DNA of 8,550 bases, from positions 1 to 8,550 of the forward strand of contig JACQWU010000253.1 in NCBI GenBank assembly GCA_016209155.1, given 5' to 3'. The translations under genes were made by a program, and so were the position numbers. This DNA is from Candidatus Desantisiibacteriota bacterium. Its GTDB lineage: Bacteria; JACRDZ01. Under the pieces are notes generated by a model that was given only the letters and a program-made list of their open reading frames with translations, was not told the DNA's origin and made no database searches. Positions 2,543 to 8,550 of the stretch are shown one piece after another; positions within the stretch are counted from its first letter, which is position 1; each line of letters opens with the position of its first letter.

Positions 2543-3415
2543 ATGTTTAAAGGATCTATAACTGCAATTGTTACACCTTTTAAGGATAGTAAAATAGATG
2601 AAAAAGCTTTAAGGGATTTAATTGAATTCCAAATTAAAAACGGGACTCAGGGTATTGTGCCATGTGGAACTACAGGGGAGTCAGCCACATTAAGCTATGA
2701 AGAACATAAAAAAGTAATTTCTATTACTGTTGAAACTGTAAATAAAAGGATCCCTGTAATTGCAGGGTCAGGTTCGAATAATACGGAAGAAGCCATAGAA
2801 TTAACCAAATATGCTAAATCAGCCGGCGCGGATGGTGCGTTATTAATCACTCCTTATTATAATAAACCGACTCAGCAGGGACTTTTCAAACATTTTGAAA
2901 AAGTTGCAGGTGCGGTGGATATCCCAATAGTTCTTTATAATGTACCGTCACGCACAAGTGTAAATTTATTGCCTGCTACAGTTGAAAAATTATCAAAAAT
3001 TTCAAATATTGTGGCTGTCAAAGAAGCTACCGGAGATTTAAAACAATGCAGTGAAATAATAAATCTGTGCGGAGATAGAATTGTTCTTCTTTCAGGTGAT
3101 GATTTTACTGTATTGCCTCTTCTTTCAATAGGAGCAAAAGGTGTCATTTCTGTAGTATCAAATGTAGCTCCGAATGATATGTTTTTATTAATATCCGAAT
3201 TTAATAAAGGTAACATAGCAAAAGCGTGTGAAATTCATTACAGGATTTTCAATCTGACAAGTATGCTTTTTATTGAAACCAATCCGGTTCCGGTAAAAAC
3301 TGCTTTAGCTATGATGGGAAAAATAAAAGAAGACGTCAGATTACCTCTTTGCGGTATGCTGGAAGAAAATAAAAATAAATTAAAAGAAGTTCTTTTGAAA
3401 ATGAAACTAATATAG
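2543..3415 (+). CDS. dapA: 4-hydroxy-tetrahydrodipicolinate synthase (DapA)
   Basis: 290 residues, the standard length for this (beta/alpha)8-barrel enzyme. It condenses pyruvate with aspartate-semialdehyde in the first committed step toward diaminopimelate and lysine. All key residues can be seen: GTTGE with T43-T44, Y106 in TPYYNKP (102-109), the proton-relay Y132 and R137 in LYNVPSRT (131-138), and the Schiff-base lysine K160 in VAVKEATGDL. GDDF (185-188) and GVISV (200-204) complete the family pattern. It is cytoplasmic and normally tetrameric. The start is fixed by AGGAGA at 2531-2536 and by the MFKGSITAIVTPF N-terminus typical of the family. It is the first gene of a dapA-dapB-dapL cluster with its own promoter; dapB follows after 31 bp. 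The leader is too short for known lysine riboswitch control. Confidence 0.97.
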   Translation: MFKGSITAIVTPFKDSKIDEKALRDLIEFQIKNGTQGIVPCGTTGESATLSYEEHKKVISITVETVNKRIPVIAGSGSNNTEEAIELTKYAKSAGADGALLITPYYNKPTQQGLFKHFEKVAGAVDIPIVLYNVPSRTSVNLLPATVEKLSKISNIVAVKEATGDLKQCSEIINLCGDRIVLLSGDDFTVLPLLSIGAKGVISVVSNVAPNDMFLLISEFNKGNIAKACEIHYRIFNLTSMLFIETNPVPVKTALAMMGKIKEDVRLPLCGMLEENKNKLKEVLLKMKLI

Positions 3416-3446: not shown

Positions 3447-4256
3447 ATGATAAAAACAATAGTGACAGGTTGTTGCGGGAGAATGGGAAGAGCTATTATT
3501 AAATGTCTTGCTGATGAACCGGAAATGGCTTTGGTCGGAGCTATTGAATCCCCTGGACATCCAAATATCGGGAAAAATGTTAATGATATTATGGGATTGG
3601 ACAAATTTAAAATATTGATTGATGATAATTTTGAAGAAGTGATAGATAAAGCAGATGTGGTGATAGAATTTATACTTCCTGATGTCACTTTAAAACATTT
3701 AGAGATAGTAAAAAGCTATAATAAAAAAATTGTAATAGGTACAACGGGTTTTAAAGACGAAGAAAAAAATATAATAAAAAAATATTCAGAATCTATAGCT
3801 ATTGTTCTTTCCCCGAATATGAGTGTGGGAGTAAATCTTTTATTTAAGCTGGTAGAAGATGTGGTTGATGTTTTGCAAAGCGGATATGATATTGAAATAA
3901 TTGAAGCACATCATAACTTAAAAAAGGATGCTCCAAGCGGAACAGCCATGAAGATTGCTGAAATCCTGGCAAAACAGCAGAATAAAAAGCTTACCGATAT
4001 AAGTGTTTACGGAAGAAAAGGACTGGTAGGACAGCGCACGCGGGAGGAAATAGGAATTCATGCTGTTCGTGCCGGTGATATTGTGGGTGATCATACTGTA
4101 CTTTTCGGTGGTATGGGTGAGAGACTTGAAATTACTCATCGCGCGCATAGCAGAGACAATTTTGCTCTGGGTGCTATCAGAGCCGCAAAATTTATTGTCA
4201 GCAAAGAAAAAGGTATTTTTGATATGCTTGATGTATTGAAATTAAAGAAATCATGA
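3447..4256 (+). CDS. dapB: 4-hydroxy-tetrahydrodipicolinate reductase (DapB)
   Basis: 269 residues, normal for the family. It reduces the DapA product with NAD(P)H to tetrahydrodipicolinate. The N-terminal Rossmann nucleotide loop is GCCGRMG (8-14). GTTGF (98-102) and the SPNMSVGVN segment (122-130) are conserved. The catalytic motif E153-A-H155-H156-x-x-K159-x-DAPSGT (to 166) supplies the general acid histidine and the lysine. The C-terminal GERLEITHRAHSRDNFA stretch (224-240) is the substrate/tetramer signature. GGGAGA at 3435-3440 serves the ATG. It lies 31 bp after dapA and 99 bp before the ATG of dapL, almost certainly in the same transcript. The enzyme looks intact and its product is the direct substrate of DapL, so the defect in the next gene would break the pathway at that point. 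Confidence 0.97.
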   Translation: MIKTIVTGCCGRMGRAIIKCLADEPEMALVGAIESPGHPNIGKNVNDIMGLDKFKILIDDNFEEVIDKADVVIEFILPDVTLKHLEIVKSYNKKIVIGTTGFKDEEKNIIKKYSESIAIVLSPNMSVGVNLLFKLVEDVVDVLQSGYDIEIIEAHHNLKKDAPSGTAMKIAEILAKQQNKKLTDISVYGRKGLVGQRTREEIGIHAVRAGDIVGDHTVLFGGMGERLEITHRAHSRDNFALGAIRAAKFIVSKEKGIFDMLDVLKLKKS

Positions 4257-4355: not shown

Positions 4356-5225
4356 ATGGAAAATTTTTTTTTAGAACCGGCAGATAGAGTGAAAAATTTG
4401 CCAACCTATCTTTTTGCGGCAATTGATAAAATGAAATCAGAAGCTGTTAAAAAAGGCAGGGATGTTATAGACTTAGGAATCGGTGACCCTGATTTGCCTA
4501 CCCCTGCAGAAATAGTAGAAAGTCTTTATATATCTGCAAAAGAACCTGTGAATCATAGATATCCTTCATATATTGGGATGATATCTCTGCGTTCATCCAT
4601 TGCCGCATGGTATAAAAAAAGATTCGGTGTAGTTCTTGACCCTGAGACTGAGGTGCTGCCTTTAATAGGTTCAAAGGAAGGGATTGCTCATATTCCTCTT
4701 GCGTTTATTAATCCGGGTGATGTTGTTTTGTTTGGGGATCCTGGTTATCCTGTGTACCCGGCAAGCACTATTTTAGCCGGAGGAACACCTCATCCATTAC
4801 CTTTGCTTAAAGAGAATAACTTCTTGCCAATTCTTGAGAATATTAGTGCGGATATTTTAAAAAAGGCAAAATTGCTTTTTGTTAATTATCCAAATGGTAT
4901 AACCGCGCTAAATTCAGATCCAAAAATAATTGAGAACCAAAATAAAATATATAAACAGCGCAGAGATCTAATGATAGAAGGACTCCATAGAGCAGGTTTT
5001 AAAGTTGAAAAACCTAAAGCTACTTTTTATATATGGATGCGTATCCCTGACAGATATACTTCGCTTGAATTTACTACTATTATGCTTGAAAAAGCAGATG
5101 TTGTTTGTACTCCTGGAATAGGATTTGGTAAATATGGTGAAGGATACGTGCGTTTCAGTTTGACAGTAAATACAGAAATACTAAAGAAAGTTATCGAAAG
5201 ACTTAGCAGTTTAAAAATAGGCTGA
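4356..5225 (+). CDS. dapL: LL-diaminopimelate aminotransferase (DapL) with large internal deletion; probably inactive
   Basis: From the ATG at 4356 (AGGAGG at 4346-4351) the frame gives 289 residues; DapL is usually near 390. The N-terminal half matches well: EPADRVKNLP, IDLGIGDPDLPTP (38-50), HRYPSYIGM (67-75), IGSKEGIAH (104-112), FGDPGYPVYP (126-135). So does the C-terminal part: IYKQRRDLMIEGL (198-210), KATFYIW (221-227), CTPGIGFGKYGEGYVRFSLT with R266. Between N180 (NYPN) and G181 (GITALNSD), about 100 family residues are missing. They include the rest of the NPT loop, the aspartate that contacts the PLP ring nitrogen (CHDAAYSE in relatives), and the SLSK lysine that forms the PLP Schiff base. 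No stop or frameshift is present. As written it cannot act as an aminotransferase. The last codons and the stop overlap a heptad-repeat element. An upstream in-frame TTG at 4332 lies inside repeats and is unlikely to be the start. An assembly collapse is the main alternative explanation. Confidence 0.88.
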   Translation: MENFFLEPADRVKNLPTYLFAAIDKMKSEAVKKGRDVIDLGIGDPDLPTPAEIVESLYISAKEPVNHRYPSYIGMISLRSSIAAWYKKRFGVVLDPETEVLPLIGSKEGIAHIPLAFINPGDVVLFGDPGYPVYPASTILAGGTPHPLPLLKENNFLPILENISADILKKAKLLFVNYPNGITALNSDPKIIENQNKIYKQRRDLMIEGLHRAGFKVEKPKATFYIWMRIPDRYTSLEFTTIMLEKADVVCTPGIGFGKYGEGYVRFSLTVNTEILKKVIERLSSLKIG

Positions 5226-5322
5226 AGACTTAAGGTTGAAGGCTGAAGACTGAAAAAAATAATGATTAATTGAAATATTTATCCTTTAGTCTAAAATCTT
5301 CAGTCTAAAAACCTTCAGTCTA
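5220..5322. repeat. Heptad-built inverted-repeat element, copy 1 (dapL-folK gap)
   Basis: The left arm (5220-5254) is five 7-base units: GGCTGAA, GACTTAA, GGTTGAA, GGCTGAA, GACTGAA. An AT-rich spacer follows. The right arm (5282-5322) carries the complementary words TTTAGTC, TTCAGTC and TTCAGTC separated by A-rich steps. The arms are imperfectly complementary (for example AGACTGAA with TTCAGTCT), so RNA from here could fold. The right arm is nearly the same as that of copy 2. The first unit contains the dapL stop codon. There is no transposase gene and no T-tract after the fold. Confidence 0.8.
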
Positions 5323-5337: not shown

Positions 5338-5844
5338 ATGAAAATACAAAAAAATGTGTACTTAGGATTAGGATCTAATTTAGGAAATCGTGAGAAAAAT
5401 ATTGTTAATGTTTTAGCTATATTATCACAAAATCCCAAGGTGAAAATTTTAAAAATATCATCATTTTATGAGACTGAACCTGTTGGGTATAAAAATCAGG
5501 GATGGTTTTTAAACTGTGTAATTTTAATTAAAACAAGTTTGCCTCCTCTTAAATTGCTAAGCGAATTAAAAAATATTGAACTGGAGCTTAAAAGAAAAAA
5601 AAATATCCGTTTTGGACCTCGTACTATAGATATGGATATTTTGATGTATGGGAGTGATATATTGAGGTCAAAACAACTAATAATACCTCATCCCCGTATG
5701 CATGAACGCCGTTTTGTCCTTGCTCCCCTTGCTGAAATTGCAAGCGGCAGGATACATCCTGTTTTAAGGAAAAGAATATCCACTTTATTAAAAATTTTAG
5801 CTGATAAAGAAAGAGTAAAAAGATATAATAAGACTGAAGGCTGA
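5338..5844 (+). CDS. folK: 2-amino-4-hydroxy-6-hydroxymethyldihydropteridine pyrophosphokinase (HPPK)
   Basis: 168 residues, within the normal range. HPPK transfers pyrophosphate from ATP to the pterin alcohol in folate biosynthesis. Motifs seen: GLGSNLG (10-16), YETEPVG (44-50), and GPRTIDMDIL (93-102) with the two Mg2+-binding aspartates D98 and D100. PHPRMHERRFVLAPLAEI (117-134) holds the conserved histidine/arginine cluster. Unlike its neighbours it has no recognisable ribosome-binding site; an in-frame TAG at 5332-5334 blocks upstream extension. The last residues (T-E-G) and the TGA stop are encoded by heptad units of the second repeat element, so the natural C-terminus may have been replaced. 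The gene is isolated between two repeat copies, 112 bp after dapL and 111 bp before the kinase. Other folate genes are not in the window. Confidence 0.95.
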   Translation: MKIQKNVYLGLGSNLGNREKNIVNVLAILSQNPKVKILKISSFYETEPVGYKNQGWFLNCVILIKTSLPPLKLLSELKNIELELKRKKNIRFGPRTIDMDILMYGSDILRSKQLIIPHPRMHERRFVLAPLAEIASGRIHPVLRKRISTLLKILADKERVKRYNKTEG

Positions 5845-5919
5845 AGACTGAAGACCGAAGGTTAATAAGATATTAATCCTTTAGTCTAAAAGTCTTCAGT
5901 CTAAAATCCTTCAGCCTTT
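5832..5919. repeat. Heptad-built inverted-repeat element, copy 2 (folK 3' end and folK-dNK gap)
   Basis: The left arm (5832-5859) is four 7-base units: GACTGAA, GGCTGAA, GACTGAA, GACCGAA, followed by GGTTAAT. The right arm (5877-5919) shares blocks of 16 (ATCCTTTAGTCTAAAA), 14 (TCTTCAGTCTAAAA) and 7 (CCTTCAG) identical bases with copy 1, separated by single changes. The arms pair: GACTGAAGAC with GTCTTCAGTC, or an inner hairpin closed by TTAATA-AGA-TATTAA. The second unit contains the folK stop. No run of T follows, so a Rho-independent terminator is not obvious. Confidence 0.8.
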
Positions 5920-5955
5920 AAATTAATTCAAGAAATTAGATGGAGTATGATAATT

Positions 5956-6591
5956 ATGCAATCTTATAAATATATTGCAGTTGAAGGGCCTATCGGTGTC
6001 GGAAAAACTTCACTTGTGCATCTTCTTGGAAAGATGTTTAACGCTAAAGAAGTTCTTGAAGACATTGAAGATAATCCATTTCTTGAAAATTTTTATAAAA
6101 ATATTCGATTGCATGCTTTTCAGACACAGATATTTTTTTTAATAAGCCGGTACAAACAATTAGAACAGTTGATACAGCCGGGATTATTTGAAGATATGGT
6201 AATTACGGATTATATTTTAGATAAAGATAAAATTTTTGCAATGGTCACCCTTGATGATGATGAAATGAATATGTATAATCAGATTTATCCTTTGTTTAAC
6301 AGGAGAACACCAAACCCGGATCTTTTAATTTATTTACAGGCAAGCACAGATGTTCTCTGGGAAAGAATAAAAAAAAGAAACAGGCATTTTGAAAAGAACA
6401 TTTCAAAAGAATATTTAAAAGAAATAAATCAGGCATATGACAGCTATTTTTTTACTTATTCAGAGACACCGCTTCTGGTAATTAATACTAATGAGATAGA
6501 TTATGTTCATTCAAGCGCGGATCTTGATGATTTGATTAAACAAATAAAAGAAATGGGAAAAGGAACAAAATATTATATTCCTAAACTTTAG
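5956..6591 (+). CDS. Deoxynucleoside kinase (dNK / dGK-dAK family)
   Basis: 211 residues from the ATG at 5956. That start was chosen over the ATG at 5947 because GGAG (5942-5945) touches the first ATG but lies ten bases before the second. The P-loop is GPIGVGKTS (11-19) after the beta strand YIAVE. EDNPFLENFY (38-47) and AFQTQIFFLISRY (54-66) are typical of deoxynucleoside kinases, as are PDLLIYLQAS (121-130) and the arginine-rich lid ERIKKRNRHFEKNIS (136-150). It should phosphorylate deoxynucleosides (dA, dG or dC) for salvage; base specificity cannot be read. The usual ERS word is replaced by DMVITDY (80-86), which I recall from a bacterial branch of the family. It follows folK, a pairing I recall from other bacteria. 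The LTxxQ protein starts 18 bp downstream, so the two may be co-transcribed. Confidence 0.88.
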   Translation: MQSYKYIAVEGPIGVGKTSLVHLLGKMFNAKEVLEDIEDNPFLENFYKNIRLHAFQTQIFFLISRYKQLEQLIQPGLFEDMVITDYILDKDKIFAMVTLDDDEMNMYNQIYPLFNRRTPNPDLLIYLQASTDVLWERIKKRNRHFEKNISKEYLKEINQAYDSYFFTYSETPLLVINTNEIDYVHSSADLDDLIKQIKEMGKGTKYYIPKL

Positions 6592-6609: not shown

Positions 6610-7269
6610 ATGTTAAAAAAATTGTATGTTGTTTTTATGTTTGCAGGTTTTTTTTTATTTACAGTATGTCTATACGCCGCACAGGAAGGAAAGTCTGAAA
6701 ATGAAGTGAGAAATGCGCCTCCGCTGCAGCCATTTTCAATGATGCATGGAAATATGAGTAATATGAGCAATATACCGCAAAACATGGAAATCCCGGGGCG
6801 GAAGAAAAGTTGCGCATTCTGTGTTAAATTAGATATGATAATAAGAAATGGGGCAATCTTAGGATTAACTCAAGAACAAACGGGGAAAATTATTGATCTG
6901 AAAAATGAATGCAAAAAGACTCATATTATTAAAAATGCCGAAATAGAAACATTCGAAGTGGATTTGGAAGCTTTTCTTAATAAAGAAGAAATCGATTACA
7001 CTGCATTAAAAGAAAGAATAAAAAAGACAGCTGAAATTGGTTCAGGAATTCAAGTATTTTGTATTGATTCATTATCTAAAGGTATGGAGCTTTTAACCAA
7101 AGAACAGCAAAAGAATCTTTTTCATATAACTGATATGCAGAGAAGAAATATGATGATGCAAAATGATAGAATGAATTCTCAAATGAGAAATATGATGCCG
7201 CAAATGCCGAATAAAATGAATCGGCAGCCGGAAGATACCACAGGACAAAAGCAGGAACAATTAAAATAG
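6610..7269 (+). CDS. Exported Met-rich LTxxQ-motif protein (CpxP/Spy-like)
   Basis: 219 residues. Residues 1-23 are a Sec signal peptide (LKK, then a hydrophobic run, cleavage near LYA-AQ); there is no proper lipobox at C20. The mature protein has two LTxxQ words, LTQEQ (86-90) and LTKEQ (162-166), the hallmark of the periplasmic CpxP/Spy/zinc-resistance helical family, and is mostly helical between them. It carries a CAFC pair (C68, C71) plus C101 and C151. Ten of its 19 methionines fall in residues 176-203 and another group in 44-59. This suggests metal (copper) or chaperone-type surface binding, but that is inference. The start has AGGAG at 6595-6599. It lies 18 bp after the kinase and 41 bp before a lipoprotein gene, with which it probably shares a transcript. 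No Cpx-type regulator is nearby. Confidence 0.72.
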   Translation: MLKKLYVVFMFAGFFLFTVCLYAAQEGKSENEVRNAPPLQPFSMMHGNMSNMSNIPQNMEIPGRKKSCAFCVKLDMIIRNGAILGLTQEQTGKIIDLKNECKKTHIIKNAEIETFEVDLEAFLNKEEIDYTALKERIKKTAEIGSGIQVFCIDSLSKGMELLTKEQQKNLFHITDMQRRNMMMQNDRMNSQMRNMMPQMPNKMNRQPEDTTGQKQEQLK

Positions 7270-7289
7270 CTGAATACTAATTATTCAGC
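7269..7289 (+). other. Perfect 8-bp stem with 5-base loop between the envelope genes
   Basis: GCTGAATA (7269-7276) pairs exactly with TATTCAGC (7282-7289) around the loop CTAAT. It begins on the last base of the upstream stop codon and ends about eight bases before the ribosome site AAGGAGG of the lipoprotein gene. It is followed by A-rich sequence, not T, so it is not a Rho-independent terminator on the + strand. It could protect the upstream message or tune translation of the next gene; this is inference. Confidence 0.45.
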
Positions 7290-7310
7290 AAAAATAAGGA
7301 GGAAACAAGT

Positions 7311-8201
7311 ATGGGGAAAAAAGTGCTGGCAGTTTTTTTTCTGTTAATATTAGCAGGATGTGGTGGAGTACAAATATTTAACTCGGAAGATTTTAAAAAT
7401 AATGCGTTGAATATGGCAAAAGAATATGTTAATGCTCCAAAAGAAAAACAATTAAAGCATTTTAAAGAATTAAATATAAAAAAAGTTGTGATTACCGAAT
7501 TTAATGTTATATTTTTTACAAGATTTAATGGTAAGGAAGACGAGGCATTAATTACGGAAAAAGTGTATAATACTATTGTGGAAACAGTTCAAAAAGAACT
7601 TGGCTGGGAAGTAGTATCACGAGAGGAATTGGTTAAAAGCGGAAAATATCAGTCTCTTGTAAAAGAAGAATACTTAAGTGAAAATAATAAAAGTAATAAA
7701 GATAATATAAATAAAGATGATATATTTGTTCTTCCGGCAAAAGGACTTGGAATTGTATCAACTGAAATAGTGCAAAAAATAAAAGGTTTTAGAAGTATTG
7801 GCAGCACTTTAAAAATGGCGAATAATGTTCATAATGAAGCTGGAGTGCTTGAAGATATTGGGGCTGATGCTGCGATAAAAGTTAGCCTTGTAGCAAGCGA
7901 TCATTTTACGGGCAGAGGCGGTAAAGATAATATGCGTGCGGAAATAAGCAACTATGCAGGTAATTATACTGTTGTTGATATTTTGGTGGGGTATGCTAAA
8001 GATGATGTGCGATACAGCTATAAAGAAACAATGCGTTTTGCACTAAAGAGTGATAAGAATCATGTCATTATTTCAAGTGTCAACTGTTATGACAATAGCC
8101 AGGAAATCTTTGTTAATACTGAAAAATATTTGCAGGGATATAATGATATTGTCAAAGCTTTTGCGGAAATGATATCAGTAAGAATTAAAAATGCACAATG
8201 A
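7311..8201 (+). CDS. Lipoprotein of unknown function, possibly CsgG/TolB-N-like fold
   Basis: 296 residues. The N-terminus MGKK plus a hydrophobic run ends in the lipobox LAGC, so C17 should be lipidated after signal peptidase II cleavage. The next residue is glycine, which does not signal inner-membrane retention. I do not recognise the family. KKVVITEFNV (57-66), a helix 79-97, GWEVVSREELV (98-108) and GADAAIKVSLVAS (184-196) follow a strand-helix-strand order. That order recalls the CsgG-type alpha/beta fold of envelope lipoproteins (strand, helix, "vvsReel", "GaDaai"); this is a pattern impression only. A polar Asn/Lys-rich insert lies at 124-137. An unpaired C259 is the only other cysteine. 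The start is fixed by AAGGAGGAAA just upstream. It follows the LTxxQ protein after 41 bp, suggesting a joint envelope role. No T-tailed terminator was found after it. Confidence 0.7.
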   Translation: MGKKVLAVFFLLILAGCGGVQIFNSEDFKNNALNMAKEYVNAPKEKQLKHFKELNIKKVVITEFNVIFFTRFNGKEDEALITEKVYNTIVETVQKELGWEVVSREELVKSGKYQSLVKEEYLSENNKSNKDNINKDDIFVLPAKGLGIVSTEIVQKIKGFRSIGSTLKMANNVHNEAGVLEDIGADAAIKVSLVASDHFTGRGGKDNMRAEISNYAGNYTVVDILVGYAKDDVRYSYKETMRFALKSDKNHVIISSVNCYDNSQEIFVNTEKYLQGYNDIVKAFAEMISVRIKNAQ

Positions 8202-8351: not shown

Positions 8352-8428
8352 GCGCCTGTAGCTCAGTAGGATAGAGCAACGGATTTCTAATCCGTTGGCC
8401 GGAGGTTCGAATCCTCTCAGGCGCGCCA
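8352..8428 (+). tRNA. tRNA-Arg (anticodon TCT)
   Basis: A full cloverleaf can be drawn. Acceptor GCGCCTG (8352-8358) pairs exactly with CAGGCGC (8418-8424), followed by discriminator G and encoded CCA (8426-8428). The D arm is GCTC/GAGC. The anticodon stem ACGGA/TCCGT closes the loop TTTCTAA with anticodon TCT, which reads AGA/AGG arginine codons. The T arm is GGAGG-TTCGAAT-CCTCT with one G-T pair. It is first in a tRNA cluster behind a near-consensus promoter. Confidence 0.95.
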
Positions 8429-8452
8429 TATGCACATTTGTGACATATTTAT

Positions 8453-8530
8453 GGTGGGTGTAGCTCAACTGGTTAGAGCATCAGGTTGTGGACCTGAGGG
8501 TCGAGGGTTCAAGTCCCTTCACTCACCCCA
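8453..8530 (+). tRNA. tRNA-His (anticodon GTG)
   Basis: Acceptor GTGGGTG (8454-8460) pairs with CACTCAC (8520-8526) with one G-T pair. The base before it, G8453, is the extra G-1 of histidine tRNAs and faces the discriminator C73 (8527), the two identity elements for histidyl-tRNA synthetase. CCA is encoded at 8528-8530. The anticodon stem TCAGG/CCTGA closes the loop TTGTGGA with anticodon GTG. The T arm is GAGGG-TTCAAGT-CCCTT. It lies 24 bp after tRNA-Arg, probably in one transcript. Confidence 0.95.
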
Positions 8531-8536
8531 ATTTTT

Positions 8537-8550
8537 GCGCCCGTAGCTCA
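8537..8550 (+). tRNA. 5' end of a third tRNA, cut by the window edge (possibly Arg)
   Basis: GCGCCCG-TA-GCTCA matches the acceptor 5' strand, the conserved T8-A9 and the start of the D arm of a tRNA. It is preceded by the same TTTTT as the tRNA-Arg above and differs from that gene's first 14 bases at one position. The anticodon lies outside the window, so identity is not known; this opening is common in tRNA-Arg genes. Spacing from tRNA-His is six bases. Confidence 0.65.

Follow-up and report, generated by a model that had tools for sequence, protein, structure and literature searches.

The shortened LL-diaminopimelate aminotransferase (DapL) gene encoded at positions 4356-5225 (+) of the window, the whole stretch of 8,550 nucleotides analysed here, is very probably the outcome of a local misassembly that kept the reading frame by chance, in an otherwise ordinary gene cluster. 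This reading is drawn from the pattern of deletions in the assembly. The same clean cuts occur in at least seven other sampled genes, mostly out of frame, which points to an assembly error and not to biology. The window makes up the entire contig (C210), and its parent assembly is a MAG of 3.08 Mb in 352 contigs, 78.8% complete.

The open reading frame specifies a product of 289 amino acids, for which the best profile scores are those of DapL models. The match to TIGR03540 (DapC_direct) and NF006756 is, however, divided into two stretches: residues 1-180 run up to profile position 177, and residues 181 onward resume at position 278, so that TIGR03540 positions 178-277 are absent from the protein. 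The N-terminal part (4356-4895, +; TIGR03540 positions 3-177) closes with the word NYPN and shares 54-59% identity with intact DapLs from its own phylum. The C-terminal part (4896-5225, +; positions 278-382) opens with GITALNSD and ends in a normal stop; it shows 45% identity to the relatives, against 47% among the intact relatives themselves. Between them, at the AAT/GGT junction 4895/4896 (+), about 306-309 nt (102-104 codons) are absent at what is probably an assembly join, and similar joins are found at seven other places of the MAG. When the protein is aligned with 11 DapLs of full length, it alone is blank over columns 200-303, opposite 102-104 residues. Because positions 178-277 are absent, the TIGR03540 total remains at 399.5 bits, below the cut-off of 593.25; NF006756 gives 402.3 against 507. 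The preliminary description had reported a loss of about 100 internal residues between these two words, in a frame that stays open to a normal C-terminus, and the junction, the motifs and the open frame are all as it had placed them.

Four motifs fall within the absent block: NPT, HDAAY with its Asp and Tyr, S(L/F)SKT with its Lys, and GWRIG with its Arg. Across the 11 relatives, these are either present or almost without variation. The PLP Schiff-base lysine and the contacting Asp/Tyr, which had been named as lost, correspond to columns 228, 231 and 263; these are empty in the window protein and filled in 11/11 relatives. In Arabidopsis DapL, the equivalent of the absent lysine, K270, binds PLP (PMC3102117). 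The small-domain Arg and the C-terminal motifs (GEGYVRFSLT) are kept, with R266 and the adjacent Gly residues invariant in the alignment. The predicted intact product would be a PLP-dependent fold-type I aminotransferase, converting tetrahydrodipicolinate to LL-diaminopimelate in one step. Were the deletion true, this essential step of diaminopimelate (DAP) synthesis would be missing.

Against the 11 relatives, the two flanks of the window DapL reach 59% and 45% identity; the relatives among themselves share 58% and 47%. The flanks are thus as conserved as those of intact DapLs, which indicates that, before the break, the protein had been evolving like any complete DapL. Only three further members of the phylum were matched as relatives of this genome (G001-G003), none of them from its family, and in all three DapL is of full length with the middle block present. 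Likewise, the best 80 matches in named genomes all carry the middle block, each spanning about 300 nt beyond the query residues covered.

The neighbourhood of the gene is an ordinary one. It comprises an intact dapA, for 4-hydroxy-tetrahydrodipicolinate synthase (2543-3415, +; TIGR00674, 387.6 bits, above cut-off), an intact dapB, for 4-hydroxy-tetrahydrodipicolinate reductase (3447-4256, +; TIGR00036, 297.6 bits, above cut-off), the shortened dapL, folK (5338-5844, +; TIGR01498, 149.9 bits, above cut-off) and a small deoxynucleoside/dTMP-kinase-like P-loop kinase (5947-6591, +; weak TIGR00041 match, below cut-off). Thus, in both flanks, in the gene order after dapA-dapB and in the level of conservation, the window protein resembles DapL of TIGR03540/NF006756, and it differs in the missing profile positions.

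The rest of the contig was also surveyed. Rnf complex genes take up positions 3-2358, immediately 5' of dapA: first the 3' end of a gene that, as a guess from the sequence, may be rnfG, and then rnfE, rnfA and rnfB. On either side of folK lies one copy of an intergenic repeat (5217-5321 and 5829-5917) whose arms are inverted (GGCTGAAGACTGAA ... CTTCAGTCTAAAA); the word of this repeat occurs five times on four sampled contigs of the MAG, and not in the samples of two phylum relatives. Two ORFs at 6610-8201 have no NCBIfam match; the product of one is rich in Met and Asn and begins with a signal-like stretch, and that of the other is lipoprotein-like. Genes for tRNA-Arg and tRNA-His lie at 8352-8550, and the last bases of the contig resemble the start of another tRNA gene (GCGCCCGTAGCTCA). 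A scan of the window against IMG/VR gave no matches.

Evidence on the nature of the break comes from a symmetrical comparison, in which proteins of one genome were searched against the DNA of the others for places where two conserved pieces abut in the subject with at least 45 nt missing between them. The samples consisted of 0.61 Mb of the MAG and, as controls from the phylum, 0.42 Mb of G003 and 0.50 Mb of G001. Contigs were picked by number, except those already taken for aminotransferases or as the window, and non-overlapping ORFs served as queries for the deletion counts. Clean internal deletions, in which conserved sequence on each side meets at a subject gap close to 0 and 100-310 nt are missing, were observed in 7 of 180 gene comparisons for the MAG and in 1 of 368 for the controls (Fisher p = 0.0022). 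The single control case came from G001 (1/191; low identity, in frame), and G003 had none (0/177). When dapL, the gene that prompted the test, is set aside, six places in the MAG stand against one in the controls; six of the seven places sit on contigs picked by number only.

Apart from dapL (C210, 4895/4896; 306 nt missing, in frame), the affected genes encode an Mg-translocating P-type ATPase of the MgtA type (L125 at about 13839, contig C3; 140 nt, with flanks of 77/78% identity), pyruvate synthase alpha (L176 at about 3627, C50; 140 nt, 84/58%), a nucleotide-sugar (UDP-glucose) dehydrogenase (L156 at about 3614, C34; 254 nt, 75/73%), a PseB-like dehydratase (L142 at about 9402, C20; 134 nt), an unnamed protein (L179 at about 7206, C53; 103 nt) and MutL (L154 at about 3760, C32; 245 nt), the last being a weaker case in a variable region. 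The frame is changed at all six. An eighth case is hisC on C342 (5132-6048; L030:1133-2049), which surfaced first in an Aminotran_1_2 search as a second broken aminotransferase (C342:5240-6024). TIGR01141 matches it in two pieces, at positions 1-149 and 214-349, which meet at about 5630 of C342, with about 60 residues missing (150-213), the lysine motif FSK kept and the frame changed. Thus, the frame is altered in 7 of 8 cases. An assembly collapse had been offered earlier as one of the two ways to read the gap, and this excess of clean, mostly frame-breaking deletions in conserved genes of the MAG supports it.

Local misassembly of the deletion type occurs in draft and metagenome assemblies, and the artificial frameshifts and lost genes to which such errors give rise have been described (PMC5596377). 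The present case resembles it in the abrupt join, the conserved flanks, the 100-310 nt missing and the frame mostly broken across the assembly; the breaks recur above the level of comparable genomes and ignore the reading frame. It is unlike in one respect, namely that the frame of the window dapL stayed open, and for this reason the gene looked like a protein variant. By chance, one deletion in three would be expected to keep the frame, and one in eight did so here. The draft assembly would, on this account, have lost about 306 bp within dapL. The organism itself probably has these bases, and contig extension, scaffolding or gap filling may have produced the join. The sampled 0.61 Mb of the MAG carries 17 short N-runs of 6-106 nt, which shows that the assembly was scaffolded; the two control samples together hold two, wholly masked contigs being left out of these counts, and two further contigs of the MAG sample are masked along their entire length. 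The length missing at the dapL junction exceeds these estimated N-gaps. A join driven by repeats was considered and found unsupported: there is no long direct repeat at the junction, and no 14-mer around it recurs in the sampled 0.6 Mb.

A second explanation, which we consider improbable, is a real and recent in-frame deletion, by which dapL would be a fresh pseudogene in the strain, or in some members of the population, with diaminopimelate or lysine drawn from another source. Undecayed flanks would also be expected from a very recent deletion, and dapF, present in G001, G002 and G003, was not detected in the MAG. Nevertheless, lysA was found there, and the absence of dapF is compatible with a completeness of 79%. 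A truly decaying genome is expected to show stops and small frameshifts besides deletions. The MAG has no internal stops over about 30,500 aligned residues and two small frameshifts, similar to the one in each control, so it is not generally decaying; moreover, seven other conserved genes of the MAG have the same type of break.

The preliminary description had further reasoned that, if the short gene were genuine, a second dapL or another diaminopimelate route must exist. The search covered a second DapL, Ddh and the acetyl-type DapD. In the MAG assembly, a profile search found no second DapL, Ddh gave no matches, and for the acetyl-type DapD only hexapeptide-repeat matches below the cut-off were obtained. 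As there is no sign of a replacement among these, dapL would be expected to be intact. When the missing block alone was searched over the MAG, it recovered only other aminotransferases (C258, C320 and C250) and the C-terminal fragment of the interrupted hisC. That the missing 306 nt were not recovered elsewhere in the assembly counts against an assembly loss, although a fragment so short would not survive binning.

Lastly, a real short DapL-like protein with its own non-catalytic or changed role, dispensing with PLP chemistry or relying on a different lysine and kept in frame in the lineage, is highly implausible, since, for all its kept frame and normal termini, it has lost the cofactor-binding core with the PLP lysine, has no short counterpart among the best 80 named loci or in G001-G003, and keeps its remaining residues at the conservation of the complete enzyme, something a new function would have no need of. 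The earlier suggestion of a dead DapL or a new role accordingly finds no support.

Taken as a local assembly deletion, the finding suggests that the dapL of the organism is most likely intact and ordinary. It also carries a caution. The MAG loses stretches of about 100-310 bp within genes, with about eight seen in 0.61 Mb. Such recurrent losses mean that truncated proteins or apparent pathway gaps in this genome need a check against the reads first.
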